DNA from: Frankiales bacterium
GTDB lineage: Bacteria > Actinomycetota > Actinomycetes > Mycobacteriales > SCTD01
DNA: 64,000 bases
Direction of reading: 5' to 3'
NCBI GenBank assembly: GCA_025464695.1
Contig: JAODNQ010000152.1
Span: 4,386 to 68,385, forward strand
Shown here: positions 3,711-43,999 of the stretch, piece after piece
Layout of the letters: every line of letters begins with the position of its first letter
How positions within the stretch are numbered: the first letter of the stretch is position 1
Notes under the pieces: model-generated
What the model was told of the DNA's origin: nothing
The model's database searches: none
What the model saw: only the letters and a program-made list of their open reading frames with translations
Program-made: the position numbers and the translations under genes

Positions 3711-5464
3711 GTGCTGCTCCCTCGTCCTGCGACCGGCACGGTGCCGGGCGCTGCTGCTGCGGGGTGACCCGGACCGGCCGCGACCAGGTCCCGGCCGGCC
3801 AGGTGCCCGAACGTCATGCCGAGCGCGATGTAGGAGCCGTGCGCCGGCTCCCGTCCGCGCCACAGCGCGTTCATGTCGAGCCCGCACGCGTACAGCCCGG
3901 GGACCGGGCGTCCGGTGTCCTTGTCGAGCACCCGGGCGGCGGCGTCGGTCTTGAGCCCGAGCATCGTCGACGAGCCGCCGGGGAAGACCTGGACGGCGTA
4001 GAACGGCGCGGTGCTGATCGGGCCGAGGCAGGGGTTCGGCCGGTGAGTGGGGTCGCCGAGCGCCCGGTCGACCTCGGTCGCGCCCTTGCCGAACTCCGGG
4101 TCGACGCCCTCGGCCGCGTAGCGGTCGTTCGCCGCCACCGTCTCCGCGAGCGCGGCCGGCGGGACCCCGATCTTGCCCGCCAGCTCCTCCAGCGTGTCGG
4201 CCTGCAGCACGTAGCCGTCGCGGACCATGGCCTTGAGCCGCAGGCCGCCGGGCAGCACCAGCCCGAGCCCGTGCTTCTTGATCGCCACGGCGTCACAGAC
4301 CAGGTGGGCCGGCACTGCGCCGGTGTCGTGCATGGCCTTGACCAGGGACCCGGACGCCTCGTTGCCGAAGCGGCGCCCCTGCGCGTCGACCGCGATGTAG
4401 CCGGGCTTGGGGCGGTCGAGGAAGACGTGCGGGTACTTGCCGAGGGTCCCGTCCCGCTTGTGCAGCACCGACATGACGGCGTACGAGGCGTTGGCGTGGT
4501 TGCCCAGCTCGAGCTCTCCCCCGACGTCGAGAGCGGCCCGCATCCCGTCGCCCGTGTTGCTGTCCGGCATCAGCGACACGTGGTGCTCGGGGTAGGGCAG
4601 GAACTGCCGGCGCATCTCGAGGCTGCCGGAGAACCCGCCGCTCGCCAGCACGACCCCCCGGCGTGCCCGGACCGTCTGCGTGCGGCCCCCCACCTGGACC
4701 TCGACACCGGTGACGCGACCGTCCTCCACGAGCAGGCGCTGGACCGGCGCGGAGCGGCGGACGTCGATGCCCGCGGCGAGGGCGGACTCGTACAGGCGGG
4801 CGGCCAGGGCGTTGCCCATCGTGAGGCGGGTCCCGCGGGGGTGCCGCAGCCGGTCGCGGCCGTACCGCAGGACCATCGCCGCCACGTGCCGCGCCGAGGT
4901 CAGCGACGACCGGACGCGCAGCAGGTGCGGGACGTCGTCGAAGCTGACCATGAAGCCGAAGGGGGCGTTGAACTCCTTCAGCGGCCGCCGCAGGTGGGCC
5001 AGGCGCTCGCCCATCGTGCGCCCGTCGAAGGGCACGGGGCTGAGGAGCCGGCCGTCGAGCACCGCGCCGTCGAGGTCCTGGCGGTAGTCCGCCTCACCCG
5101 CGTGCAGGGCGAAGCGGACGTACGGGGTGCGGCTGTGCAGGAAGTCGACCATCTCGCGGGCGCCGTGCACGAACGCCTCGAGCACGTCCTCCCGCACGAT
5201 GTCCCCGACCAGTGCCCGCACGTAGCGGGCCCCCGCCTCGGGGCTGTCCTGGAAGCCTGCCGCAGCAGCCGGGCTGTTGCCCGGGACCCAGATGCCTCCC
5301 CCGGCCCAGGCCGTCGTGCCGCCGACGACGTCGCTCTTCTCGAGCACCAGGACGTCCAGCCCGCCGTCCGCGGCGGTGAGCGCCGCGGTGAGCCCCGCGC
5401 ACCCGCTGCCGACCACCACGACGTCGACCTCGACCGGGAGGGGAGCGGGCACGGCAGACGGCAC
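3707..5464 (-). CDS. FAD-dependent oxidoreductase, KstD / fumarate-reductase flavoprotein family
   Basis: About 585 residues with an N-terminal dinucleotide fold VDVVVVGSGCAGLTAAL and LEKSDVVGGTTAWAGGG. The C-terminal FAD closure is GLYACGLDMNALW followed by GSYIALGMTFGHLAGRDL. The GTTAWAGGGIWVPGN and GSYIALGMTFG blocks match 3-ketosteroid-delta1-dehydrogenase-like proteins rather than true fumarate reductases; it has no haem domain or signal peptide. It would dehydrogenate a cyclic ketone next to the carbonyl. I prefer the GTG at 5464 (GAGG six bases upstream); another GTG at 5518 would add 18 residues without a good ribosome site. It is coupled to the SnoaL-like gene. Confidence 0.82.
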   Translation of the reverse strand: MPSAVPAPLPVEVDVVVVGSGCAGLTAALTAADGGLDVLVLEKSDVVGGTTAWAGGGIWVPGNSPAAAAGFQDSPEAGARYVRALVGDIVREDVLEAFVHGAREMVDFLHSRTPYVRFALHAGEADYRQDLDGAVLDGRLLSPVPFDGRTMGERLAHLRRPLKEFNAPFGFMVSFDDVPHLLRVRSSLTSARHVAAMVLRYGRDRLRHPRGTRLTMGNALAARLYESALAAGIDVRRSAPVQRLLVEDGRVTGVEVQVGGRTQTVRARRGVVLASGGFSGSLEMRRQFLPYPEHHVSLMPDSNTGDGMRAALDVGGELELGNHANASYAVMSVLHKRDGTLGKYPHVFLDRPKPGYIAVDAQGRRFGNEASGSLVKAMHDTGAVPAHLVCDAVAIKKHGLGLVLPGGLRLKAMVRDGYVLQADTLEELAGKIGVPPAALAETVAANDRYAAEGVDPEFGKGATEVDRALGDPTHRPNPCLGPISTAPFYAVQVFPGGSSTMLGLKTDAAARVLDKDTGRPVPGLYACGLDMNALWRGREPAHGSYIALGMTFGHLAGRDLVAAGPGHPAAAAPGTVPVAGRGSST

Positions 5465-32895: not shown

Positions 32896-33411
32896 TCAGG
32901 ACAGGTCGACCTCGCTCCAGTCGAGCGCGTCGAGGTTGACGACCACGGCCTCCTGCGTCGTGCGCGCGATGACGACGACTGCCTCGACGTCCGGGTCGGG
33001 GTTCTCCTCCCGGTGCGGCACGAACGGCGGCACGAAGACGTAGTCGCCGGGCGCCGTCTGCAGGCGCGTCTCGACCGGCTCCTCGCCCTCGAGGTCCACG
33101 AAGACGAACACCGGACTGCCGGACACGACGTAGATGGCCGTCTCCGACCCGCCGTGGTGGTGGTTGCCGGACGCCGTGGCGGCGGGCACGTGGGTCTGCC
33201 CCATCCACAGGCTCTGCGCTCCGACGGTCTTGCCGCTGATGGCCTCGAGGCGCTGCATGCCGGCGGTCTGCGTGGTCTGCCCCACCAGCCCGGAGGGCGC
33301 GACCCGGTGCAGGCGCCGGTGGAACGGGTCGATGTCGGCGGGCAGCAGGACGCCGCTCGGGGTGCGGACGCCGTCAGGCGTCGAGCCGGCAGGGACGTGG
33401 AGAGCGGGCAT
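32896..33411 (-). CDS. cupin-domain protein
   Basis: 171 residues. Cupin motif 1 is GNHHHGGSETAIYVVSGSPV (HHHG...E), and motif 2 is APGDYVFVPPFVPHREENPD (PG...P..H). These give a 3-His/Glu metal site in a small single barrel. It could be a dioxygenase, isomerase or ligand sensor. Its ATG overlaps the stop of the LysR gene by one base (TGATG), so the regulator and cupin are coupled and probably sense or process the same compound. Confidence 0.85.
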   Translation of the reverse strand: MPALHVPAGSTPDGVRTPSGVLLPADIDPFHRRLHRVAPSGLVGQTTQTAGMQRLEAISGKTVGAQSLWMGQTHVPAATASGNHHHGGSETAIYVVSGSPVFVFVDLEGEEPVETRLQTAPGDYVFVPPFVPHREENPDPDVEAVVVIARTTQEAVVVNLDALDWSEVDLS

Positions 33412-34325
33412 CAGGGACCTTCGACGGGGACGGGGACGGGGTGCGGGAGGTCGTGCCGGACAGCCTGCACCGGGACGCGGACCGGCCCGGGGAGCAGCTG
33501 CCGCAGGGCGTCGGCGACGGTGCGGGTGAGGTCGTCGGGCAGACCGCGCCGCGCCCACACCGCCAGCGGCAGCGGGCGGGGCCGGGGCAGGTCTGCACAG
33601 AGGGTCAGCCCGGAGGGCGTGTGCCCGAGCGTGGCCATCAGCGCGACGCCCTGGCCGGAGGCGACCACGGCGTGGACGCCGGCGAGCTGAGGGGCCTCCG
33701 CACTGAGCGTGGAGGCGATCCCGTGAGCGGCGAGGGTCTCGAGCGCCCGGCTGCGCAGCGCGCAGGGGTCGTCGAAGGCGACGAGCGGCAGCGGTCCGGA
33801 GGGAGGCGACCAGGAGGGAGCGGCGTACCAGGCCAGCTCGAGCTCACCGACGGGGACGGCGCGGGGGTCGTCGGTCGCGCCGAGCAGCAGTGCCAGGTCC
33901 AGCCGTCCGGCGGCCAGGCCCTCGCGCAGCGGCGTGCCCCGGTCGATGCGGAACCGCACGCGGTGGTCGGGGAGCTCGTGCTCCAGCAGCCGGGCGAGGC
34001 CGGGGAGCAGCTGGGCGGCGGCGTGCTCCGTCGAGCCGATGACGAGGGCCAGCTCGGACTCGACCCCGAACGCGAGCAGGCTCTCGTCGTGCAGGGCGAG
34101 CAGGCGGCGGGCCCGGGCGAGCAGCAGCTCGCCGTCCGGGGTGAAGCGCGAGCCGCGGCCCTGCCGGACCAGCAGGGGGCGGCCGACCGCCGCCTCCAGC
34201 CGTCGCACGTGCTGACTGACCGCGCCCTGGCTCAGGTGCAGGGACGTGGCGGCGCGCGAGAAGCCGCCGCAGTCCGCCACGGCCACCAGGCTGCGCAGGG
34301 GCCCGATGTCGAGGGTGCGTGTCAC
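33411..34325 (-). CDS. LysR-family transcriptional regulator
   Basis: 304 residues. The N-terminal winged helix is LRSLVAVADCGGFSRAATSL followed by HLSQGAVSQHVRRLEAAVGR, and PLLVRQGRGSRFTPDGELLL, all typical LTTR. The effector domain runs from about residue 90 (SELALVIGSTEHAAAQLLPG). It is divergent from the leader peptide and monooxygenase operon, the classic arrangement of an LTTR and its target, and is translationally coupled to the cupin. Confidence 0.9.
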   Translation of the reverse strand: MTRTLDIGPLRSLVAVADCGGFSRAATSLHLSQGAVSQHVRRLEAAVGRPLLVRQGRGSRFTPDGELLLARARRLLALHDESLLAFGVESELALVIGSTEHAAAQLLPGLARLLEHELPDHRVRFRIDRGTPLREGLAAGRLDLALLLGATDDPRAVPVGELELAWYAAPSWSPPSGPLPLVAFDDPCALRSRALETLAAHGIASTLSAEAPQLAGVHAVVASGQGVALMATLGHTPSGLTLCADLPRPRPLPLAVWARRGLPDDLTRTVADALRQLLPGPVRVPVQAVRHDLPHPVPVPVEGP

Positions 34326-34398
34326 GGCTGCGGCCGTCCCGGCAGCGCCGGTACGGGACCGATCAGCGGACGTGATGGGTCACCTCCGCGGGATGTGG

Positions 34399-34429
34399 TT
34401 GGACTTTCCTGAGTCACTCGGTCAAGATA
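34399..34429 (+). promoter_or_regulatory. promoter-like sequence with a palindrome in the spacer
   Basis: TTGGAC (34399-34404) and CAAGAT (34423-34428) are plausible -35 and -10 hexamers 18 bases apart. The palindrome GAGTCACTC (34411-34419) lies between them. Transcription would begin about 7 bases after the -10, at or next to the leader-peptide ATG at 34436, giving a leaderless message. Operator function of the palindrome is inferred. Confidence 0.45.
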
Positions 34430-34435
34430 CTGCCC

Positions 34436-34516
34436 ATGAGCCGCTCGAGCCACGGAACGCTGACGTGCCGCCGGTGGCTCGACTACGGCCGCTACGACGC
34501 AGCGCTGTGTCGCTGA
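34436..34516 (+). CDS. putative cysteine-containing regulatory leader peptide (26 aa)
   Basis: A 26-codon ORF begins MSRSSHGT and continues LTCRRWLDYGRYDAALCR. It fits the small actinobacterial leader-peptide pattern Lxx-RR-h-x-D-h-x-R-x-x-x-A-h-C, known upstream of sulfur-assimilation and organosulfur genes. It has Cys at codons 11 and 25, the latter two codons before the stop. It has no ribosome site because the likely transcription start is at its ATG. Known role of such peptides: stalling at Cys codons when cysteine is short changes expression of downstream sulfur genes. About 300 bases follow before the monooxygenase. The assignment rests on pattern and position. Confidence 0.6.
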   Translation: MSRSSHGTLTCRRWLDYGRYDAALCR

Positions 34517-34813
34517 CCCAGGCCTGACCAAGCCTGACCCTGCCTGACGCCGCCTGGCCCTGGCGGACGCCGCCTGGCCCTGGCGGACCTCGCCCGACCC
34601 TGGCCGACGGACCTGCCGCACCCGGCTGACCCGGACCTCTCCTGGCCGGACCGGTCGTGTCTGCGCGCCGGCCTCGCCGCCTGCCGCCCGCTCGCGGTCC
34701 GCCAGCACCCCGCTCTTCCGCGGTGCGTCGGCGCGCGCACCTCTCTGCCCCGCCGTCGCCCTCCCGGGACGGCCAGCCCCCCACGTCCACCCTGAGCTCG
34801 AAAGGCAACACCC
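34517..34813. other. 297-bp untranslated leader between the leader peptide and the monooxygenase
   Basis: No credible second ORF is seen. The first 90 bases hold CCTGAC-type repeats and the 20-bp tandem repeat described separately. The rest is C-rich (for example the 34700-34800 stretch), which would suit Rho loading on the transcript. A weak ribosome site AAAGG at 34801-34805 precedes the ATG at 34814. Confidence 0.5.
34546..34605. repeat. 20-bp tandem repeat in the operon leader
   Basis: GACGCCGCCTGGCCCTGGCG occurs twice in exact tandem (34546-34565 and 34566-34585), followed by a degenerate third copy (34586-34605). Each unit can fold on itself because CCGCC and GGCGG are complementary around TGGCCCT. 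It lies 30 bases after the leader-peptide stop, so it could form the attenuator structure. Confidence 0.7.
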
Positions 34814-36199
34814 ATGTCCCGCCGCACCCTCAAGCTCGGCGCCATCCTCCTCGGCTCCGGCGGCCCCGGCCAGCACCACGCCTGGCTCGCCCCCGACGTC
34901 GCCCCGGACAGCAGCGTCGACGTCCACTGGTACATCGCCCGGGCCCGTGAGGCCGAGGCCGCGAAGTTCGACCTCGTCTTCATCGTCGACAGCCAGTTCA
35001 TCACCCCGGACTCGCCGAACCACTACCTGAGCCGGCTCGAGCCGCTGACGCTGCTGTCCGCTCTCGCCGTCTCCACCCGCAACATCGGCCTGGTCGGCAC
35101 GCTCACGACGTCGTACAACGAGCCCTTCAACCTGGCGCGCCGCCTGTACTCGCTCGATCACATCAGTGGCGGCCGCGCGGGGTGGAACGTCGTCACCAGC
35201 GGCGACGCCGGCACCGCGGGCAACTACAGCCGTGACGAGCACTACGACTACGCCACCCGCTACGGCCGGGCGCACGAGAGCGTCGCCGTCGCCCGGGGCC
35301 TGTGGGACTCCTACGAGGAGGGCGCCTTCCCCCGTGACAAGGAGACGGGCGTCTTCTTCGACCGGAGCAAGCAGCACACCCTGGACCACAAGGGCGAGCA
35401 CTTCTCGGTCGTCGGGCCCCTCAACCTGGAGCGCTCCCCCCAGGGACAGCCGGTCATCTTCCAGGCCGGCGACTCGGACGAGGGCCGCGACCTCGGCGCC
35501 AGCATCGCGGACGCCGTCTTCACGCACGCCCCGACCCTCGAGCGGGCGCGTGCCTTCCGCGACGACCTGCGGGCCCGCGCCGCGGCGAAGGGCCGCGACC
35601 CGGAGGAGGTGCTGATCGTCCCGGGGATCTACCCGGTCATCGCCGACACCGACGAGCAGGCCCGCGCCGAGGAGGCCGCCATCCTGGGCGCGAAGAGCTT
35701 CGACAAGGGCCTCGCGGAGCTGGGCCGGCCCTTCGGCTGGCACGACTTAAGCCAGTACGACCTCGACGCCCCCTTCCCCGACGTCGCCCACCTCGGCGCC
35801 CGCAGCTTCCGCACGCAGGCCGACGCGATCACGCGCAACGCGCAGGAGGGCGGCCTGACGCTGCGCCAGGTGGTGCAGCAGCAGCTCGACGCCCGCCGGT
35901 CGCCGTTCGTCGGCTCGCCGCTGACGGTGGCGGACGAGATCCAGCGCTGGTTCGAGGGCGGCGGCTTCGACGGCATCAGCATCAGCGTCACCTCGCCCTC
36001 GGAGTTCGCCCGCTTCACCGACCAGGTGCTGCCGATCCTGCGCGAGCGGGGCGTCGTCCGCAGCGAGTACGAGTCCTCCACCCTCCGCGGGAACCTCGGC
36101 CTCCCGGTCCCGCAGAACCGGCACACGGCCGCCCGGACGGTCGAGCTCCCCACGGAGCGCGTCCCCGAGGACGAGCCGGTCCCGGTGCTCGTGCCCTGA
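34814..36199 (+). CDS. FMN-dependent monooxygenase, NtaA/SnaA/DszA/SfnG type
   Basis: 461 residues, normal for the NtaA/SnaA/DszA family of bacterial-luciferase-like enzymes. Blocks include LKLGAILLGSGGPGQHHAWL, VHWYIARAREAEAAKFDLVF, YNEPFNLARRLYSLDHISGG, RAGWNVVTSGDAGTAGNYSR and PVIFQAGDSDEGRDLGASIA. These enzymes use FMNH2 from a partner reductase to oxidise or cleave chelators, sulfones or thioethers. No flavin reductase is adjacent. With the cysteine leader peptide upstream and an ABC importer downstream, an organosulfur substrate is the best inference. Weak ribosome site. Confidence 0.88.
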   Translation: MSRRTLKLGAILLGSGGPGQHHAWLAPDVAPDSSVDVHWYIARAREAEAAKFDLVFIVDSQFITPDSPNHYLSRLEPLTLLSALAVSTRNIGLVGTLTTSYNEPFNLARRLYSLDHISGGRAGWNVVTSGDAGTAGNYSRDEHYDYATRYGRAHESVAVARGLWDSYEEGAFPRDKETGVFFDRSKQHTLDHKGEHFSVVGPLNLERSPQGQPVIFQAGDSDEGRDLGASIADAVFTHAPTLERARAFRDDLRARAAAKGRDPEEVLIVPGIYPVIADTDEQARAEEAAILGAKSFDKGLAELGRPFGWHDLSQYDLDAPFPDVAHLGARSFRTQADAITRNAQEGGLTLRQVVQQQLDARRSPFVGSPLTVADEIQRWFEGGGFDGISISVTSPSEFARFTDQVLPILRERGVVRSEYESSTLRGNLGLPVPQNRHTAARTVELPTERVPEDEPVPVLVP

Positions 36200-36317
36200 C
36201 CTCCCGCAGCAGCCGGACCGTCCGCAGCACCCGGACCTCCCGCAGCAGCCACCGCTCCCGCGCGCCCGACCACCCCGACAGCCCCGACAGCCCCGAACGC
36301 CCCGACCACCCCGACAG
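36198..36317. repeat. 36-bp-period imperfect repeat between the monooxygenase and the transporter genes
   Basis: A 17-bp word beginning GACCTCCCGCAGCAG occurs at 36198 and 36234, and a second 17-bp word, CCCGACCACCCCGACAG, at 36265 and 36301. Both pairs are spaced exactly 36 bases. The strand is C-rich and G-poor with almost no structure, which resembles Rho-loading (rut) sequence. It fills the 131-bp gap before the binding-protein gene. Confidence 0.6.
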
Positions 36318-36330
36318 AGAGACCCTCCCC

Positions 36331-37875
36331 ATGTCCGCACGACCCCCGCTCCTCGCCCGCCGCACCCGGCGCCGCGCCCTGGTCGCCGCCTCGCTGGCCG
36401 TGCCGGCGCTGCTCGCCAGCGGCTGCGCCGGCAGCAGCGCGGCCAGCAGCCCCGGCAAGGGACCGGCCACGCTGTCCTGGGCCTCGTCCTACTTCCCCGC
36501 GCACTGGGACCCGGTGGTCTCCGGCAGCGGCGCGCAGTTCCGCGAGCTGGCCCTGGTCTACGCCGCGCTGACCCGCACCGACGAGACGGGGGACGCCGTC
36601 CCCGACCTCGCCGCGAGCTGGGACTACAACAGCACCGGCGACGTCATCACCTTCCACCTGCGGCCCGGACTGACCTTCAGCGACGGCACCCCGGTCGACG
36701 CCGCTGCGGTCAAGGCCGCGATCGAGCGGGCCAAGACGCAGAAGACGTCCGCGGTCTTCGGCGACCTCACCTCCATCGGCTCGGTGACGACCGACGGCGC
36801 TCTCGACGTCGTCGTGCACCTGACGCAGACCGACTACCAGGTGCCCCTGCTGTTCGGCGAGCGCGTGCTCCAGATCGCCAGCCCCAAGGCCGCCGCCGAC
36901 CCGACCGCGCTGGACCAGCAGCCCGTCGGCGCCGGCCCGTTCGTCGTTGAGCAGCTGGTCCCGGGCACCAAGGCGGTCCTCAAGAAGAACCCGCGCTACT
37001 GGGACGCGGCGAACATCCACCTCGACGAGGTCGAGCTCGTCTCCGCCCCCGACGCCGCCACGGTCGTCGCCGGGCTGCAGACCGGGGTCTACGACTTCGC
37101 GGACATCCCCGCGAGCCAGCGGGCCGCGGCCACGGCAGCCGGCCTGGACACCTTCGTGCAGCCCGGGTTCAACGCCAACAACATCAGCATCAACGTGAAC
37201 AAGGCTCCCTTCACCGATCCCCGGGTGGTCGACGCCGTCCGGTACGCGATCGACCGCAAGGAGTTCGTCGACAAGCTGACGTTCGGCAGCGGCGAGGCGA
37301 CCACGCAGCCCTTCCCGCCCGGGTACGTCGCCTACGACCCCCGGTCCGCGGACCTCTACCCGCACGACCCGGCCAAGGCGAAGCAGCTGCTGGCCGCCGC
37401 CGGCTTGAAGCCCGGTCAGGTCAGGCTGACGCTCGACATCCCCAAGGCGCAGCCGGACGCCGAGATCGTGCAGTCCCAGCTGGCCGCCGTCGGCATCACG
37501 GTCGACATCAGGGTCGACAAGAACTGGGCGACCCCGTTCTTCGCCAAGGACCTGGCCTTCTCGCTGTACGGGACGACGGGCCGCGACTCCGCGGTCCAGA
37601 CGCTCACGGCGCACTTCGGCCCGAACGGTCCGCTGAACCTCAGCACGCCTTACGAGCCCGCCGGCTTCGAGGCAGCGGTCGCGACGGTGCGACGGACGCC
37701 GCTCGACGCGCCGGGCTACCCGGCGGCACTGCAGGCGGCCACGCGGGCCGGGCTGCAGAGCAGGGCGCTGGTGTTCACCTACGCGCCGCCGAACCTCTAC
37801 GCCAAGAGCAAGCGCGTGTCCGCGCTGCCGGCCAACCCCGGGCACCTCGACCTGACCGGCGTGACGGTCCGGTGA
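36331..37875 (+). CDS. ABC transporter substrate-binding lipoprotein, dipeptide/nickel family 5
   Basis: 514 residues. An Arg-rich n-region and hydrophobic core end in a lipobox, LLASGCAG, with the lipidated Cys at residue 32. The mature part has family 5 features: PDLAASWDYNSTGDVITFHL, RPGLTFSDGTPVDAAAVKAA, GAGPFVVEQLVPGTKAVLKK and RYAIDRKEFVDKL. It captures substrate outside the cell for the permeases that follow. Family members bind peptides, nickel, opines, glutathione and sulfonates; the operon context favours an organosulfur compound. Confidence 0.88.
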   Translation: MSARPPLLARRTRRRALVAASLAVPALLASGCAGSSAASSPGKGPATLSWASSYFPAHWDPVVSGSGAQFRELALVYAALTRTDETGDAVPDLAASWDYNSTGDVITFHLRPGLTFSDGTPVDAAAVKAAIERAKTQKTSAVFGDLTSIGSVTTDGALDVVVHLTQTDYQVPLLFGERVLQIASPKAAADPTALDQQPVGAGPFVVEQLVPGTKAVLKKNPRYWDAANIHLDEVELVSAPDAATVVAGLQTGVYDFADIPASQRAAATAAGLDTFVQPGFNANNISINVNKAPFTDPRVVDAVRYAIDRKEFVDKLTFGSGEATTQPFPPGYVAYDPRSADLYPHDPAKAKQLLAAAGLKPGQVRLTLDIPKAQPDAEIVQSQLAAVGITVDIRVDKNWATPFFAKDLAFSLYGTTGRDSAVQTLTAHFGPNGPLNLSTPYEPAGFEAAVATVRRTPLDAPGYPAALQAATRAGLQSRALVFTYAPPNLYAKSKRVSALPANPGHLDLTGVTVR

Positions 37876-37882
37876 CCGCGAC

Positions 37883-38911
37883 ATGACCACCGCCTCCGCA
37901 CCCCTCCTGCTCCCCGACCCCTGGATGCTCGGCGGCCCGCAGCTGCGACGGGCCGCCCGGCGCACCGCGCTGGTCGTCGCCCGCTCCGTCGCGGTCCTCG
38001 TGCCGGTGTTCCTGCTCGCCACCTTCGTCACCTTCGCGCTGCGGGACGTCAGCGGGCTGAGCCCCGCGACCCTGCAGCTCGGCGAGGCGGCGACGCCCGA
38101 GGCCGTGGACCGGGTCGAGCACGTGTGGGGCCTGGACCGGCCGTTCCTGGCGCAGTACGCGACCTGGTCCCGTGACGTCCTGCACGGCGACCTGGGCCGC
38201 AGCTGGTCCAACGGCGCCGACGTCTCGCGGCTCATCGCCGACGGGATCGTCGTCAGCCTGTCGGTCGCCACCCTCGCGCTGGTCGTCGGCGTCGTGTTCG
38301 GCTTCGGCCTCGGGACGCTGGCCGCCGTCCGCCGCACCACCTGGGTCGACCGGGCCATCACCGCGGTGCTCACGGTGTTCTCGGTGATGCCGCCGTTCGT
38401 GGTGGGGATCGTGCTCGTCGAGGTCTTCGCCGTCGGCCTGCAGTGGTTCCCGTCCGCCGGCTACGTGCCGTTCGCGGCCGGGGTCTCGCCGTGGTTCGCG
38501 CACCTGCTGCTGCCGGCGCTCGCCCTGAGCTTCGACACGGTGGCCGACGTCGCCCGGCAGCTGCGCGCCGGACTGATCGGGGCGTACCAGGAGAACTACG
38601 TGACGGGCGCCCTCGTGCGCGGGCTCAGCGACCGCCGCATCTTCTTCGGGCACGTCCTGCGCAACGGTGTGGGCCCCGCGCTCAGCGTCCTCGGGCTCAA
38701 GTTCCCCGCCCTGATCGGGGGCTCGGTCGTGACCGAGTGGATCTTCGGGCTGCAGGGCTTCGGCCGCTTCGCGAGCGAGGCGGCACAGGCCGGAGACGTG
38801 CCGTCGGTCCAGGGCGTCCTCGTGGTGTCGATCGTGCTGGTGGTCGCGTTCAACACGGTGGTCAACGTGGCGCTCGGCAAGGTCACACCGGCCAGTCAGC
38901 GGGGGGTCTGA
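37883..38911 (+). CDS. ABC transporter permease, DppB type
   Basis: 342 residues with six membrane segments. First is VARSVAVLVPVFLLATFVTF near residues 35-55. The DppB N-terminal periplasmic loop (LGEAATPEAVDRVEHVWGLD, RPFLAQYATW) is present. The EAA loop reads YVTGALVRGLSDRRIFFGHV with the downstream LRNGV. It pairs with the next permease. ATG 7 bases after the binding-protein stop. Confidence 0.9.
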   Translation: MTTASAPLLLPDPWMLGGPQLRRAARRTALVVARSVAVLVPVFLLATFVTFALRDVSGLSPATLQLGEAATPEAVDRVEHVWGLDRPFLAQYATWSRDVLHGDLGRSWSNGADVSRLIADGIVVSLSVATLALVVGVVFGFGLGTLAAVRRTTWVDRAITAVLTVFSVMPPFVVGIVLVEVFAVGLQWFPSAGYVPFAAGVSPWFAHLLLPALALSFDTVADVARQLRAGLIGAYQENYVTGALVRGLSDRRIFFGHVLRNGVGPALSVLGLKFPALIGGSVVTEWIFGLQGFGRFASEAAQAGDVPSVQGVLVVSIVLVVAFNTVVNVALGKVTPASQRGV

Positions 38912-38912
38912 C

Positions 38913-39800
38913 ATGGTCCGTCGCGTCCTCGCCCTCCGCACCGGGCGGCTGGCCGTCGCCCTGCTCGGCGTGATCGCGCTGCTGGCCGTCCTCGGGCCGC
39001 TCCTCGCCCCCGCCGACCCCCTGGCCAGCTCTCCCGACCTGCTCGCCGGCTTCTCCTGGCACCACCTGCTGGGCACCGACTACCTCGGCCGGGACGTGCT
39101 CAGCCGGCTCCTCGCCGGGTCGCGGACCAGCGTGCTCGGAGCCGTGGAGGTCGCCCTGGTAGCCCTCGTCGTCGGCGTGGTCCCGGGCCTGCTGTCGGTC
39201 TACCTCGGACGCGTCTTCGAGTGGACCAGCCTGCGCCTGGTCGACACCCTGATCTCGCTGCCGTTCCTCGTCTTCGCGGTCGCCGTCACCGCGCTGCTGG
39301 GCAACGGCATCACGCAGGCGATGCTCGTGGTCGGGGTGCTCGTGTCGCCGCTGTTCTACCGGGTCTCCCGCGCCGCCACCCTCTCGGTCGCGCGGTCGCA
39401 GTACGTCGAGGCCGCTCTCGTCTCCGGTGCCTCGCTCGGCTGGGTGCTCCGCCGGCACGTCTGGGGCAAGGTGCTGCCGGCCGTCGCCGTCGCGCTCGCG
39501 CACACCATCGGCGTCGGCTTCGTCGTCGTGTCCAGCCTGAGCTTCCTCGGCATCGGCGTGCAGCCTCCCGCCCCCACCTGGGGCGGGCTGCTGGCCTCCG
39601 ACCTGGGCTACCTGCACTTCCAGCCCTGGGCACCGGTCGCGCCGGCCGTCCTGATCATGGCGACCGTCTGGGGCTGCAACCTGCTCGCCGACGCGCTCCG
39701 CGACGTCTCGGGCGAGGCCGGCCGGGCCCTCGCCAACACCCAGAAGGCCCGGGCCAACGGCTCGGGCGCGCTCCCCGTCCCCACGAGAGGCAGGACCTGA
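38913..39800 (+). CDS. ABC transporter permease, DppC type
   Basis: 295 residues. It has the DppC signature HHLLGTDYLGRDVLSRLLAG and the EAA loop YVEAALVSGASLGWVLRRHV. The C-terminal block is SFLGIGVQPPAPTWGGLLAS, also typical. Six membrane segments are visible. It starts one base after the DppB-type gene and its stop overlaps the start of the ATPase gene (TGATG), so stoichiometric expression is expected. Confidence 0.9.
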   Translation: MVRRVLALRTGRLAVALLGVIALLAVLGPLLAPADPLASSPDLLAGFSWHHLLGTDYLGRDVLSRLLAGSRTSVLGAVEVALVALVVGVVPGLLSVYLGRVFEWTSLRLVDTLISLPFLVFAVAVTALLGNGITQAMLVVGVLVSPLFYRVSRAATLSVARSQYVEAALVSGASLGWVLRRHVWGKVLPAVAVALAHTIGVGFVVVSSLSFLGIGVQPPAPTWGGLLASDLGYLHFQPWAPVAPAVLIMATVWGCNLLADALRDVSGEAGRALANTQKARANGSGALPVPTRGRT

Positions 39801-40684
39801 TGTCCACGCTCGTCGAGCACCCGGCTCTGCACCCGCTGCCGGACCCTCCGGCTCCCGCCCCGGTCCTGGCCGTCCGGGACCTGCGCGTGCACGACCGCGT
39901 CAGCGACCGGGAGATCGTGCACGGGGTCTCGTTCACCCTGACCCCCGGCGGGGTCGTCGGGATCGTCGGGGAGTCCGGCAGCGGCAAGACGCTGACCTGC
40001 CGCGCGGCCCTGGGGATCCTCCCCGCGCACTTCGAGGTGTCAGGCGGCTCGATCTCCCTCGCCGGTCGTGACACCGCCGATCTCACGGCGGCGGAGTGGA
40101 CCGGCGTGCGGGGGTCGACCATCAGCGCGGTGTTCCAGGACCCCGCGTCCTACCTCAACCCCTCCATCCGGGTGGGCGCGCAGGTGGCCGAGGTGGTCCG
40201 CGTGAAGACCGGCGCCTCCCGACGGCAGGCCCGCCGACGCGCGCTCGAGCTGCTCGCCGCGGTCCACCTGCGCGACCCGGCGCTCGTCTACGAGCAGTAC
40301 GCCTTCGAGCTCTCGGGCGGGATGCTGCAGCGCGTCCTCATCGCGGCCGCGATCGCCGCCGACCCCGCGGTCCTCATCGCCGACGAGGCGACCACGGCGC
40401 TGGACGTCACGGTCCAGGCCGAGGTCCTCGACCTGCTGGCCGACCTGCAGGAGCAGACGGGCCTCGCCCTGCTCGTCGTCTCCCACGACCTCGCCGTCGT
40501 GGCCCAGCTCTGCGACGAGGTGCTGGTGATGCGGCAGGGCACCGTGGTCGAGCAGGGCCCGACCGCGCAGGTGCTGCACTCCCCGGTCCACGGCTACACG
40601 CGGATGCTCCTGGCCGAGCACGAGCAGTACGGCCTGGAGCGCTACCTGGACTCCTCCAGCACCGGGCTCACCCGTGTCGGCTGA
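39800..40684 (+). CDS. ABC transporter ATP-binding protein, DppD type
   Basis: 294 residues with Walker A GIVGESGSGKTLTCRAALGI, the Q-loop in SAVFQDPASYLNPSIRVGAQ, signature ELSGGMLQRVLIAAAIAADP, Walker B AVLIADEATTALDVTVQAEV and the H-loop in LALLVVSHDLAVVAQL. The signature Ser-Gly-Gly-Met-x-Gln is typical of DppD. It lacks the extended Fe-S C-terminus found in some DppD proteins. It overlaps the next ATPase gene by 11 bases. Confidence 0.93.
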   Translation: MSTLVEHPALHPLPDPPAPAPVLAVRDLRVHDRVSDREIVHGVSFTLTPGGVVGIVGESGSGKTLTCRAALGILPAHFEVSGGSISLAGRDTADLTAAEWTGVRGSTISAVFQDPASYLNPSIRVGAQVAEVVRVKTGASRRQARRRALELLAAVHLRDPALVYEQYAFELSGGMLQRVLIAAAIAADPAVLIADEATTALDVTVQAEVLDLLADLQEQTGLALLVVSHDLAVVAQLCDEVLVMRQGTVVEQGPTAQVLHSPVHGYTRMLLAEHEQYGLERYLDSSSTGLTRVG

Positions 40685-41516
40685 CCGCCCCGGCCCCGTC
40701 CTGGCGGTCCGCGACCTCGACGTGCACTACGGGCCCGCCCGGCACCGCCGCCAGGCGCTGACCGGCGTCGACCTCGAGGTGCACGCCGGGGAGACCGTGG
40801 GCCTCGTCGGCGAGACCGGGTCCGGCAAGTCGACCCTGGCCCGCACGGTGCTCGGGCTGGTGCGCTCCACCTCCGGGCAGGTCCTGGTCCAGGGCGTCGA
40901 CGTCGCCCGGCACTCGTCCCGGCAGTGGCGCGCCCTGCGGCGCCGGGGCGTCGTCCAGTACGTCTTCCAGGACCCGCTGCGCAGCCTCGACCCCGACGTC
41001 ACGGTCCGCGAGTCGCTGCTCGAACCGCTCCTCGTGCGGGGCGACGACCGCGCGTCGGCGCTCGAGCGGACGCACGCGCTGCTGGACCGCGTGCACCTGG
41101 ACCAGGACCTGCTCGACCGGCTGCCGGGCGAGCTCTCGGGAGGCCAGCGCCAGCGCGTGGCCGTGGCGCGAGCTCTCGTGACCGAGCCCTCCCTGGTCAT
41201 CCTCGACGAGCCGGTCAGCGCCCTGGACTCCGCCAACCGCGTCGAGGTGCTCGGGATCCTCAAGGAGCTGCGGAGCACCGGGGTGGCCCTGCTGTTCATC
41301 TCGCACGACCTCGGCTCGGTGGCCGGGGTCGCCGACCGCATGGCCGTCATGTACCGGGGCCGGCTCGTCGAGACCGGCGACACCCGCCAGGTCATCACCG
41401 CCCCCCAGCACCCCTACAGCCGCCTGCTCCTCGGCTCGGTGCCCACGCTGCGGTCCGGTGCCGCCGACCGCACCGAGCGCAGAGCCCTGCGCGCCGCCGT
41501 GCACGCCCTCGCCTGA
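40674..41516 (+). CDS. ABC transporter ATP-binding protein, DppF type
   Basis: 280 residues from a GTG inside the end of the preceding gene. Walker A is GLVGETGSGKSTLARTVLGL, the Q-loop QYVFQDPLRSLDPDVTVRES, the signature ELSGGQRQRVAVARALVTEP, Walker B LVILDEPVSALDSANRVEVL and H-loop LLFISHDLGSVAGVA. It completes a heterodimeric ATPase with the DppD-type protein. Confidence 0.93.
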   Translation: MSADRPGPVLAVRDLDVHYGPARHRRQALTGVDLEVHAGETVGLVGETGSGKSTLARTVLGLVRSTSGQVLVQGVDVARHSSRQWRALRRRGVVQYVFQDPLRSLDPDVTVRESLLEPLLVRGDDRASALERTHALLDRVHLDQDLLDRLPGELSGGQRQRVAVARALVTEPSLVILDEPVSALDSANRVEVLGILKELRSTGVALLFISHDLGSVAGVADRMAVMYRGRLVETGDTRQVITAPQHPYSRLLLGSVPTLRSGAADRTERRALRAAVHALA

Positions 41517-41537
41517 CCCCTCCCGGAGGAGCCTCCC

Positions 41538-42344
41538 GTGTCCCAGCACTCCCGCCCCACGTCGTCGTCGTCGACCGTGTCCACGTACGCGACGCCCGAG
41601 GGGCTCCGCGTCCGCGGCACCGTCGTCGTCGTCCCCGGACGGGGTGAGACGGCCGGCAGCTACGGGCGCCTCGGCCGCCGCCTCGCCGCGGACGCCTACG
41701 GGGTCCGGGTCCTCGACCCGCCCCGCTTCGACGACGACGACGTCGAGGGCCCGCTGCGCGACCTCGCCCGGCGGCTCGACGAGGCCCTCGGCGGACCGGT
41801 GCAGGCCGCTCCCCTGGTCCTGCTCGGTGCCGACACCGGCGCAGCCGCCCTGTCAGCGCTGGTGGCCCGGCAGCCGGCGGACGCCGCGTGGCAGCCGCAG
41901 GCCCTGGTGCTCGCCGGGCTGCCCGGCTACACGGCGCCCGCGCTGGACGGCTGGGACGAGGAGCTCGACGCCCGCACCCGCTGCCCGGTCCAGCGCGCCG
42001 TGCTCACCGAGGACGACGGCGTCCAGCGCGGCCGCCTGGGAGCGGCGGTCCCGGCCGCGCTGCTCGACGCCGCCTACGGCAGCACCGCGCCCGTCCCGCA
42101 CCTGCTGCTCGTCGGAGACGACGACGCGCACGCCGACCGGGAGGCCCTCGCCCGGCTGCTTCGGTCGCTGCCGCAGGCACGCCTGGGCGTGGTCCGCGGC
42201 GTCCGCCACGACGTCCTCAACGACCTGCAGCACCGCGCGGTCGCCGCGGAGGTCGTCGGGTTCCTGGAGGCCCTGCGGGAGGGGACGCCCCTGGTCCCGC
42301 TCGTCGCGGTGGCGGCGAGCGAGGCGCAGGCGGTGCTCGTCTGA
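41538..42344 (+). CDS. alpha/beta-hydrolase-like protein at the end of the transporter operon
   Basis: 268 residues. Early TVVVVPGRGETAGSYGRLGR resembles the oxyanion strand of alpha/beta hydrolases (G-R-G-E in place of HGxG). The expected nucleophile elbow is LVLLGADTGAAALSALVARQ, with GADTG in place of GxSxG, so the nucleophile would be Asp or absent. Candidate acid and His are in LLLVGDDDAHADREAL and VVRGVRHDVLNDLQ. The RHDVLND form is frequent in hydrolases found next to NtaA-type monooxygenases. It starts with GTG 21 bases after DppF, GGAGGAG upstream, so it belongs to this operon. Substrate unknown. Confidence 0.75.
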   Translation: MSQHSRPTSSSSTVSTYATPEGLRVRGTVVVVPGRGETAGSYGRLGRRLAADAYGVRVLDPPRFDDDDVEGPLRDLARRLDEALGGPVQAAPLVLLGADTGAAALSALVARQPADAAWQPQALVLAGLPGYTAPALDGWDEELDARTRCPVQRAVLTEDDGVQRGRLGAAVPAALLDAAYGSTAPVPHLLLVGDDDAHADREALARLLRSLPQARLGVVRGVRHDVLNDLQHRAVAAEVVGFLEALREGTPLVPLVAVAASEAQAVLV

Positions 42345-42403: not shown

Positions 42404-43999
42404 GTGGAGCGCTCCGACTGGCTGCTGACCCCGGCGGAGCGCGACAACCCCGCCACGACGCTCGACCGTCGGCACGGGCCCGACGGGCCGGCCTGGACGG
42501 AGGGCAACGACGTCCGCGCCCTGGTCCACGGCAGCACCTACTTCGCCCGGCTCCACGACGTCGTTGCGCGTCTGGTGAAGGGCGACCTGCTGTGCTTCAC
42601 CGACTGGCGCGGCGACCCGGACGAGCGGCTGACCGGCGAGCCCGGCAGCGAGGTCGGGCAGGTGTTCAGCGCCGCCGCCGAGCGAGGCGTGGTGGTCAAG
42701 GGCCTGCTCTGGCGCTCGCACCTGGACGGTCTGGCGTACAGCTCCGACGAGAACCGGCACCTCGGGACCGACGTCAACGAGGCCGGCGGCGAGGTGCTGC
42801 TCGACCAGCGGGTCCGCCCGTTCGGCAGCCACCACCAGAAGCTCGTCGTCGTGCGCGGGGACGGCGTCGACGTCGCGTTCGCCGGCGGGATCGACCTGTG
42901 CCACAGCCGGCGCGACGACCGCGACCACCGGGGCGACCCGCAGGGGCTGAGGATGTCGGAGGAGTACGGCGACACCCCGCCCTGGCACGACGTGCAGCTC
43001 GAGGTCCGCGGCCCCGCGGTCGGTGACCTGGAGGCCGTGTTCCGGGAGCGGTGGGACGACCCCGCGCCGCTGGACAACCGCGTGCGCATGGCGGTGGAGC
43101 GGCGGCTCGTCAGAGGTGTCGACACCGACGCCAGCGCGCTGCCCCTGCAGACGCCCGACCCGGCCCCGGCCGGCACGTGCACCGTGCAGGTCCTGCGCAC
43201 CTATCCGGCACGCCGCACCCCGTACCCGTTCGCCCCGCGGGGTGAGCGCAGCGTCGCGGCGGCCTACCGCAAGGCGCTGCGGCGCGCCCGCCGCCTGGTC
43301 TACCTCGAGGACCAGTACCTGTGGTCCGCCGAGGTCGCGGAGCTGTTCGCCGAGGCGCTGACGCGCGAGCCCGACCTGCACCTGGTCGGTGTGGTCCCGC
43401 GCTTCCCCGACCAGGGCGGTCGGGTCGGTCGGCCGCCGAACCTCGTCGGCCGGCAGGACGCGCTCGACGTCGTGGTGCAGGCCGGAGGCGACCGGGTCCG
43501 CGTCTTCGACCTGGAGAACTGCGTCGGCACGCCGGTGTACGTCCACGCGAAGGTCTGCCTGATCGACGACGTCTGGTCCAGCGTCGGCAGCGACAACCTG
43601 AACATGCGCAGCTGGACCCACGACAGCGAGCTGTCCTGCGCGGTGCTCGACGACGCGCTCGACCCGCGCGAGCCGCGCGACCCCGCGGGCCTGGGGGACG
43701 GCGCCCGCCGCTTCGCGCGGGACCTGCGGCTGGAGCTGTGGCGGGAGCACCTCGACACCGACGACGACGCCGGGCTGGTCGACACGGTGGCCGGGCTCGC
43801 CCGGCTCAGCGCGTCCGCCGAGGCGCTCGACGCCTGGCACGACGGCGGCCGCCAGGGCCCGCGGCCGCCGGGCCGCCTGCGCACCCACCACTTCGACCGG
43901 CTGCCACCCTTCACCCGGACGTGGGCCCGGCCGCTCTACCACCTCGTGGTGGACCCCGACGGGCGCCCGCGCGACGGCGTGCGCCGCACCTGGCAGTAG
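42404..43999 (+). CDS. phospholipase D-family protein
   Basis: 531 residues with two HKD motifs. The first is GSHHQKLVVVRGDGVDVAFA followed by GGIDLCHSRRDD; the second is YVHAKVCLIDDVWSSVGSDN followed by LNMRSWTHDSELS. Both have the HxK and the trailing GG/GSxN needed for the phosphatidyl-enzyme intermediate. There is no signal peptide, so it is probably cytosolic or membrane-associated. The family hydrolyses phosphodiesters or makes cardiolipin; the layout resembles actinobacterial PLD/cardiolipin-synthase-like proteins. GTG start; ends 14 bases before a convergent gene. Confidence 0.9.
   Translation: MERSDWLLTPAERDNPATTLDRRHGPDGPAWTEGNDVRALVHGSTYFARLHDVVARLVKGDLLCFTDWRGDPDERLTGEPGSEVGQVFSAAAERGVVVKGLLWRSHLDGLAYSSDENRHLGTDVNEAGGEVLLDQRVRPFGSHHQKLVVVRGDGVDVAFAGGIDLCHSRRDDRDHRGDPQGLRMSEEYGDTPPWHDVQLEVRGPAVGDLEAVFRERWDDPAPLDNRVRMAVERRLVRGVDTDASALPLQTPDPAPAGTCTVQVLRTYPARRTPYPFAPRGERSVAAAYRKALRRARRLVYLEDQYLWSAEVAELFAEALTREPDLHLVGVVPRFPDQGGRVGRPPNLVGRQDALDVVVQAGGDRVRVFDLENCVGTPVYVHAKVCLIDDVWSSVGSDNLNMRSWTHDSELSCAVLDDALDPREPRDPAGLGDGARRFARDLRLELWREHLDTDDDAGLVDTVAGLARLSASAEALDAWHDGGRQGPRPPGRLRTHHFDRLPPFTRTWARPLYHLVVDPDGRPRDGVRRTWQ

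Follow-up and report, generated by a model that had tools for sequence, protein, structure and literature searches.

Within a 64,000-nucleotide stretch of a Frankiales bacterium genome (contig JAODNQ010000152.1 of assembly GCA_025464695.1, positions 4,386 to 68,385, hereafter called the window), a short open reading frame (ORF) at 34436-34516 stands in front of genes for a flavin mononucleotide (FMN)-dependent monooxygenase, an ATP-binding cassette (ABC) importer and a hydrolase. This ORF quite probably senses cysteine in cis, from the 5' end of a presumably leaderless mRNA whose further genes would serve cysteine salvage. The ORF, its conservation, the position of its promoter, the spacing between an Asp and a Cys, a near-invariant UGU codon and the gene content of the operon are drawn here from comparison across loci. 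What appears to be newly found is an invariant Asp nine residues ahead of the regulatory Cys, together with a nearly fixed TGT at that Cys; the sensor would thus probably hinge on one decisive, slowly decoded UGU codon, with probable help from the nascent RRxhDxxR segment.

A conserved leader peptide

Translation of the ORF (+ strand) gives MSRSSHGTLTCRRWLDYGRYDAALCR*, comprising 26 sense codons followed by TGA, with Cys codons at positions 11 (TGC) and 25 (TGT) and nowhere else, so that no contiguous Cys codons occur. The species genomes of GTDB were scanned once with the window monooxygenase, which yielded 49 loci, and in these and in the window the 900 nucleotides (nt) upstream of the monooxygenase (115 nt in L021) were surveyed with a loose leader pattern and with profiles. 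The pattern matched in 22 of the 50 sequences. Twenty of these, one being the window, have an RWLD version, L018 has the canonical version of the family (LLLTRRRAVDLGRTSTALC) and L030 a diverged one (CHLIDLACRGAAVC), and all 22 carry TGT nine codons after the Asp, a position termed D+9 below. Loci with a leader 5' of their monooxygenase gene come from Frankia, Catellatospora, Phytohabitans, Hamadaea, Actinokineospora and Amycolatopsis as well as from metagenome-assembled genomes. In 25 of the 49 loci the upstream region contains, on the other strand, a relative of the LysR-type regulator gene of the window (1.8 kb off in L017; L040, with a 35% match 4.5 kb distant, was left out of the count). 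Among the 26 LysR-linked loci, window included, 20 possess an RWLD leader, L018 the canonical and L030 the diverged one, while two leaders are damaged and two loci are without. The initial annotation had read the ORF as a leader peptide and had named comparison of orthologous loci as a check, and this retention in 20 of 26 loci supports the reading.

The residues M1, L9, T10, R13, W14, L15, D16 and R19 are invariant in 20 aligned leaders. They delimit a nascent-peptide segment, LTCRRWLDYGR (codons 9-19; 34460-34492, +), which is conserved in the aligned leaders and recurs family-wide as L-T-x-R-R-x-h-D-x-x-R, and the peptide is kept under synonymous codon change: among 22 distinct RWLD leader DNAs (sources: 19 named sequences, one of them the window, plus eight further loci) the Arg, Leu, Asp and Thr codons vary synonymously, and the codon of Cys25 (34508-34510, +), nine residues after Asp16, is TGT in all 22. 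At the position of Cys11 the same DNAs encode Cys in 15 cases, Arg in 5 and Ser in 2. Both Cys codons had been singled out earlier; since the position of Cys11 varies and Cys25 is invariant, only the latter looks regulatory. Judged from this comparison, the ORF is a genuine leader under selection.

A near-invariant UGU codon

From the wider family described below, 181 items were counted and identical ones merged, and among the resulting 158 distinct leaders the Cys at D+9 is encoded by TGT in 154 and by TGC in four (L105, L188, L197 and L219, two of them in loci of 45-47% G+C). In loci with at least 60% G+C the figures are 149 and 2, and after a 75% redundancy filter TGT stands at D+9 in 120 of 122. 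The leaders are related by descent, which limits these codon counts; the search profile scores protein, and therefore codons were not selected by the search. The nine-residue spacing between Asp and Cys is partly circular because the search profile and the counting motif both contain it: a Cys nine residues after the Asp was required by the pattern, and no submitted item failed (144 items and 181 items). The damaged leaders of L006 and L016 were left out of the Asp-Cys pattern counts, and dropped before the codon counts were L059, L062-L064 and L067-L069 (E 0.3 to 2, not all strand-correct), L091 (E 0.0015; without the Asp and the Cys), and L080 and L193 (short loci with a match outside the fixed offset).

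In ordinary genes TGT accounts for 68 of 788 and 30 of 265 Cys codons (9-11%, from crude ORF calls in both cases). Other Cys codons of the leader peptides show TGC:TGT counts of 47:8 at D+2, 12:3 at D+8, 6:4 at D+7 and 13:12 at D-5, and TGT is raised at some other positions too, as at D-4 with 13 TGT against 4 TGC. Wobble information amounts to 2.32 bits at the D+9 Cys against at most 0.83 bits elsewhere in the peptide, and nucleotide conservation drops to background, near zero, past the peptide end. Further leader loci, a Rhodococcus-family sample among them and some of them duplicates, have TGT in 33 of 35; where these carry Cys tracts, the D+9 codon is fixed and D+8 is TGC in 8 of 10. Mycobacteria are presumably among the genomes of these further loci.

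Two side observations concern the neighbouring nucleotides. In 108 of the 122 non-redundant leaders a C follows directly on the D+9 TGT, for the most part (104) owing to an Arg or Pro codon at the next position, and a decoding context effect is possible. Close to half of the GC-rich leaders have A or T as the last base of the codon four before the Asp, which specifies Arg and in some leaders Cys (G+C at third codon positions, GC3, 0.55), unlike most of the peptide.

A literature search met, in the passages covered, no report of a fixed UGU or of a leader in front of the window operon. Cys codons have been described to lower GC skew in six regulatory small ORFs (sORFs) of Mycobacterium tuberculosis (Smith et al., 2022), and SinR of Bacillus subtilis offers a natural case of synonymous codons sensing an amino acid.

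A wider family of cysteine leaders

Searched with a profile of the RWLD leaders, 246 Actinomycetes genomes gave nine strong matches (E ≤ 1.2e-12), the next one following at 1.2e-5, and the weaker matches inspected were mostly leaders of the type LTxRRxVDxxR..SxLC located 5' of other genes (L091 was not). A combined family profile matched 168 of 197 Actinomycetes genomes (per-genome E ≤ 0.02) and, in the family to which a Rhodococcus genome belongs, 53 of 61 genomes (E ≤ 0.02), part of the matches being inspected in each case. A phylum-wide search matched 14 of 296 genomes at E ≤ 1e-4, and all 14 were already in the class samples (loci L225-L249 were left out of the analysis). This hints at a restriction of the leader family to Actinomycetes.

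Pfam identified a sulfite/nitrite reductase 3' of a sister leader and, with five of six proteins matched, rhodanese, DUF4395, a sodium:dicarboxylate symporter (SDF), an NMT1-type binding protein and a luciferase-like monooxygenase behind others. The downstream genes checked are mostly sulfur genes. Crude clustering of 153 downstream ORFs produced five largest groups of 57, 23, 22, 13 and 5, of which only single members were family-checked. All six sister peptides examined match the NCBIfam models leader_Ms4527A (NF042936), leader_Ms5788A (NF042933) or cis_reg_atten (NF042934) at E ≤ 10, mostly below the cutoff, which one of them reaches (27.5 vs 27 bits); the Ms4527A and Ms5788A models are apparently named after mycobacterial leaders that were reported or proposed as Cys-responsive. 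Among 20 RWLD leaders a single one matches these models (E 0.028). The window leader itself fits the family profile A2, with LTxRRxhDxxR, the Cys nine after the Asp and TGT at the regulatory Cys, a membership that for the Asp-Cys motif is partly by construction because A2 was built with the window leader among its rows. As far as sequence comparison goes, the window leader is a divergent relative of the actinobacterial Cys-leader family to which Ms5788A, Ms4527A and cis_reg_atten belong.

A probable leaderless start

Upstream of the leader lie a -35 element TTGGAC (34399-34404, +) and a -10 element CAAGAT (34423-34428, +), with a spacer of 18 nt between them and a gap of 7 nt to the ATG. Since a strict sigma-70 scan of the window region found no promoter, the support for these elements is conservation and not consensus. 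Among 24 upstreams (those of the window, of 20 named loci, the damaged L006 and L016 being counted in, and of 3 further genomes; L020 and L030 left out), TTGGAC begins at -37 in 16 and at -38 in 8, A(-12), T(-8) and C(-1) are each present in all 24, and C(-13) and C(-9) in 23 each, the exception at -9 being the window itself; the -10 element of relatives is mostly CANNCT. A Shine-Dalgarno (SD)-like sequence was flagged in two of the 24. The last -10 base lies 8 nt 5' of the ATG, and therefore transcription probably starts at or next to ATG 34436, which would make the leader mRNA leaderless. A start at this ATG had been assumed before, and the promoter spacing conserved in 24/24 upstreams speaks for it.

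The leader promoter shares one intergenic region with the divergent LysR-type regulator gene (33411-34325, -; HTH_1 E 2.4e-20, LysR_substrate E 1.8e-17), which went unmentioned in the initial annotation. A ATCACGAAGC-like stretch, which may be a LysR site, is conserved just 5' of TTGGAC in relatives, little of it being left in the window (by eye).

The operon and its monooxygenase

Behind the leader follow, all on the + strand, the SD-like GAAAGG (34800-34805) of the monooxygenase gene, the FMN-dependent monooxygenase of YtnJ/MoxC type (34814-36199), the solute-binding protein SBP_bac_5 of the importer (36331-37875; E 1.1e-74), two permeases assigned to BPD by family match (37883-38911 and 38913-39800), two ABC ATPases likewise assigned (39800-40684, with an ATG overlapping the stop of the second permease, and 40674-41516) and an alpha/beta hydrolase (41538-42344; Hydrolase_4, E 1e-11), relatives of which are present in 10 of the 49 fetched loci. 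This content, a luciferase-like monooxygenase, a five-gene importer and a hydrolase, is as the initial annotation had it.

The monooxygenase scores 485.5 bits against TIGR03860 (NtaA/DmoA; cutoff 279.7), and its nearest solved structure is YtnJ/MoxC of B. subtilis (1yw1; 424 bits, E 7.1e-126), with 198 of 429 positions identical (46%). DszA reaches 238 bits against the 424 of YtnJ, and the DszA-type oxidative desulfurisation proposed earlier was rejected. Because YtnJ/MoxC is the closest among solved structures, a cysteine-salvage reading is preferred, and salvage of an S-substituted cysteine seems likelier than desulfurisation of the DszA type. YtnJ/MoxC we take to be CmoJ. The latter cleaves an N-acetyl-S-alkylcysteine sulfoxide as part of a route by which cysteine is regained (PMC10863075). 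A cysteine-yielding pathway under a cysteine sensor would be coherent, and the earlier idea of a sulfur-type operon behind a cysteine leader is supported by the comparison.

In 15 of the 49 loci (L001, L003, L005, L006, L009-L014, L016, L019, L020, L035 and L038) a second monooxygenase, 55-58% identical to that of the window, lies 3' of the ATPases, where the window has the hydrolase; L012 carries another luciferase-like enzyme and L001 a flavin adenine dinucleotide (FAD) enzyme. In the Parafrankia locus L030 a flavin reductase gene (4485-4976 of that locus) stands directly 3' of the hydrolase. Used as a query, it had no tblastn match in the window at E ≤ 1, a divergent reductase being possible, which agrees with the absence stated earlier. 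Family searches recognised no deacetylase or acetyltransferase among the seven operon proteins. On the far side, a cupin gene (32896-33558, -) adjoins the LysR gene and has been kept alongside the module in 10 of the 49 loci (L001, L002, L008, L012, L014, L015, L017, L030, L035 and L039). A Phospholipase D-like gene (42404-43999, +) follows 3' of the operon; the matches listed for the 49 loci at E ≤ 1e-10 include none to this gene.

The spacer and the output step

A C-rich spacer of 283 nt (34517-34799, +; C 0.49, G 0.30) separates the leader from the SD-like sequence of the monooxygenase and is a possible Rho entry region. No intrinsic terminator was found in 34300-34850, and Rfam gave no match. 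The 120 nt from just 5' of the Cys codon have a folding z-score against shuffles of -2.46 in the window and of -0.83 on average in 17 loci (range -3.66 to 1.27). Repeat-rich RNA had been claimed for this region, and a tandem repeat of about 20 nt in about four copies is indeed present at 34513-34609; as no such array was seen by eye in the spacers of relatives, the repeats look local and were rejected as a functional element.

For M. smegmatis leaders translational attenuation has been reported, and Rho has been proposed for mycobacterial cys leaders in a prediction called rather weak by its authors (Seliverstov, 2005; PMC1262725). For the window leader, Rho-dependent termination in the C-rich spacer has close to an even chance of being the output, unmasking of the ribosome-binding site (RBS) as in M. 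smegmatis has a smaller if still considerable one, and another step seems rather unlikely.

Proposed mechanism and alternatives

In the proposed mechanism, the operon products, i.e., the importer, the CmoJ-like C-S monooxygenase and the hydrolase, would serve cysteine salvage. UGU is decoded by G-U wobble through a single tRNA-Cys(GCA). With ample Cys-tRNA the ribosome would decode Cys25 and depart at once, and downstream expression would be attenuated; with Cys-tRNA in short supply it would halt at UGU25, two codons before the stop, while RRWLDYGR occupies the exit tunnel, and expression of the operon would follow. Slow decoding of UGU would make the halt sensitive and the conserved segment probably reinforces it. 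A further input, from substrate or sulfur, probably reaches the shared promoter through the divergent LysR regulator. Stalling, the direction of control, the help of the nascent chain and the substrate are the elements of this scheme that we infer.

Several observations weigh against a cysteine sensor of this kind at the head of a salvage operon. The leader has a single conserved Cys codon, fewer than known polycysteine sensors, and is unmatched by the three NCBIfam leader models NF042933, NF042934 and NF042936 at E up to 10. The leaders of L006 and L016 are damaged (truncated or with part of the motif missing, remnants being detected by profiles), and in L013 and L044, which carry the LysR gene, no leader was found with pattern and profiles in the 900 nt upstream, so that the operon appears able to lose it. 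The 24 loci without the LysR gene, from Rhodococcus, Williamsia, Microbacterium, Gordonia, Sphingomonas, Pseudomonas and others, gave zero pattern matches within 900 nt upstream and a single weak profile match (L045, E 0.014). For the monooxygenase, the nitrilotriacetate monooxygenase entry 3sdo, which may also hint at the substrate, reaches 398 bits against 424 for YtnJ, and the substrate is uncertain because these scores lie so near each other. Masking of the RBS gained no support: in a base-pair probability model applied to 17 loci (19 had been chosen, but L039 and L011 have no recognised SD), simulated stalling left SD accessibility unchanged relative to shuffles (mean change 0.011 vs 0.017). 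The C/G ratio of the spacers has a median of 1.52 (n = 17), only just above the 1.36 of intra-operon controls (n = 25; p 0.053).

The most serious rival, doubtful all the same, is a plain hungry-codon attenuator, in which only the speed of the Cys codon counts and the conserved peptide is incidental or serves the RNA or initiation. The UGU preference fits slow decoding, and classical attenuators need no peptide sequence. However, a simple codon sensor predicts drift in LTxRRxhDxxR, and the conservation of this segment despite codon drift, across leaders of unrelated operons, counts against it, as does the Cys nine residues after the Asp in 158 distinct leaders (partly circular; L091, without the spacing, dropped). 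An arrest peptide that responds to free cysteine or another sulfur compound in the manner of TnaC, and not to tRNA charging, would accommodate the conserved Asp and the residues upstream of it at a fixed distance from a C-terminal codon; codon identity should then be irrelevant, yet UGU is almost invariant, and we consider such a peptide improbable.

Less probable still is a conserved DNA or RNA element, a protein site or a hairpin, that is open by chance. The near-invariant wobble T is a constraint at nucleotide level, and in the window the 120 nt from just 5' of the Cys codon have a modest folding advantage over shuffles; however, the other wobble positions stay at or below 0.83 bits against 2.32, nucleotide information is near zero past the peptide, a GACA partner for TGTC is not enriched (13 of 122 against 11.1 in shuffles) and Rfam is silent. 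Control by the LysR regulator alone, the leader being vestigial in the window, is hardly more credible: the regulator gene is adjacent and divergent, and two LysR-linked loci without a leader and two with a broken one speak for it, but of the 26 such loci 20 have kept the RWLD leader intact and two carry a different version, TGT standing at D+9 in all 22. The cysteine sensor built on Cys25 is thus the reading retained here.

Relation to known systems and significance

Escherichia coli TnaC senses tryptophan and has tunnel residues conserved at a fixed C-terminal distance. The window leader resembles it in this arrangement and in a possible Rho-dependent output, and differs in being without Trp sensing and in its codon-specific UGU constraint. 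Mycobacterial leaderless cysteine attenuators were reportedly studied by Canestrari in 2020. Among them, cysteine-rich attenuator sORFs have been described for cysA2 (Msmeg_5788) and nirA (Msmeg_4527) (Shell, 2015; PMC4633059). With these the window leader shares a short ORF, a predicted leaderless start, a C-terminal Cys and sulfur genes downstream, and its RRxhDxxR frame recurs in leaders from the Rhodococcus-family sample; unlike them, it has one conserved Cys instead of a tract, Trp-Leu before the Asp and another operon. The polycysteine leaders of Mycobacterium, Propionibacterium acnes and Bifidobacterium longum (PMC1262725) likewise have Cys near the stop and no terminator, but they contain runs of Cys codons, as opposed to the single conserved Cys of the window, and precede other genes. 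The cysS attenuator uORFC-8-2 of Rhodobacterales (PMC8632094) is similar in placing Cys codons in a short ORF 5' of a Cys-related gene and different in its tandem, mostly UGC Cys codons and its intrinsic terminator. With the CmoJ-dependent salvage of S-alkylcysteine in B. subtilis, CmoJ again being presumed to be YtnJ/MoxC, the window shares the monooxygenase (46% identity over 429 positions), and related loci share some extra luciferase-like enzymes and one flavin reductase; the window differs in its dipeptide-type importer and in having no recognised deacetylase or acetyltransferase among its seven operon proteins.

A broader proposal, offered tentatively and with less than even confidence, is that the cysteine leaders of Actinomycetes are nascent-chain-programmed single-codon sensors instead of polycysteine counters, in which RRxhDxxR in the tunnel would set UGU at D+9 as the decision point, UGC would disable control and the mycobacterial polycysteine tract would have grown out of this one codon. 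The present comparison connects widespread cysteine leaders with a hitherto uncharacterised operon of Frankia-like bacteria, presumed to serve salvage, and reveals that at one position a single synonymous codon is chosen almost without exception. Hence the question is raised whether codon identity, beyond amino acid identity, sets the sensitivity of a natural ribosome sensor, and RRxhD-8-UGU may provide a simple signature for annotating unlisted sulfur operons.

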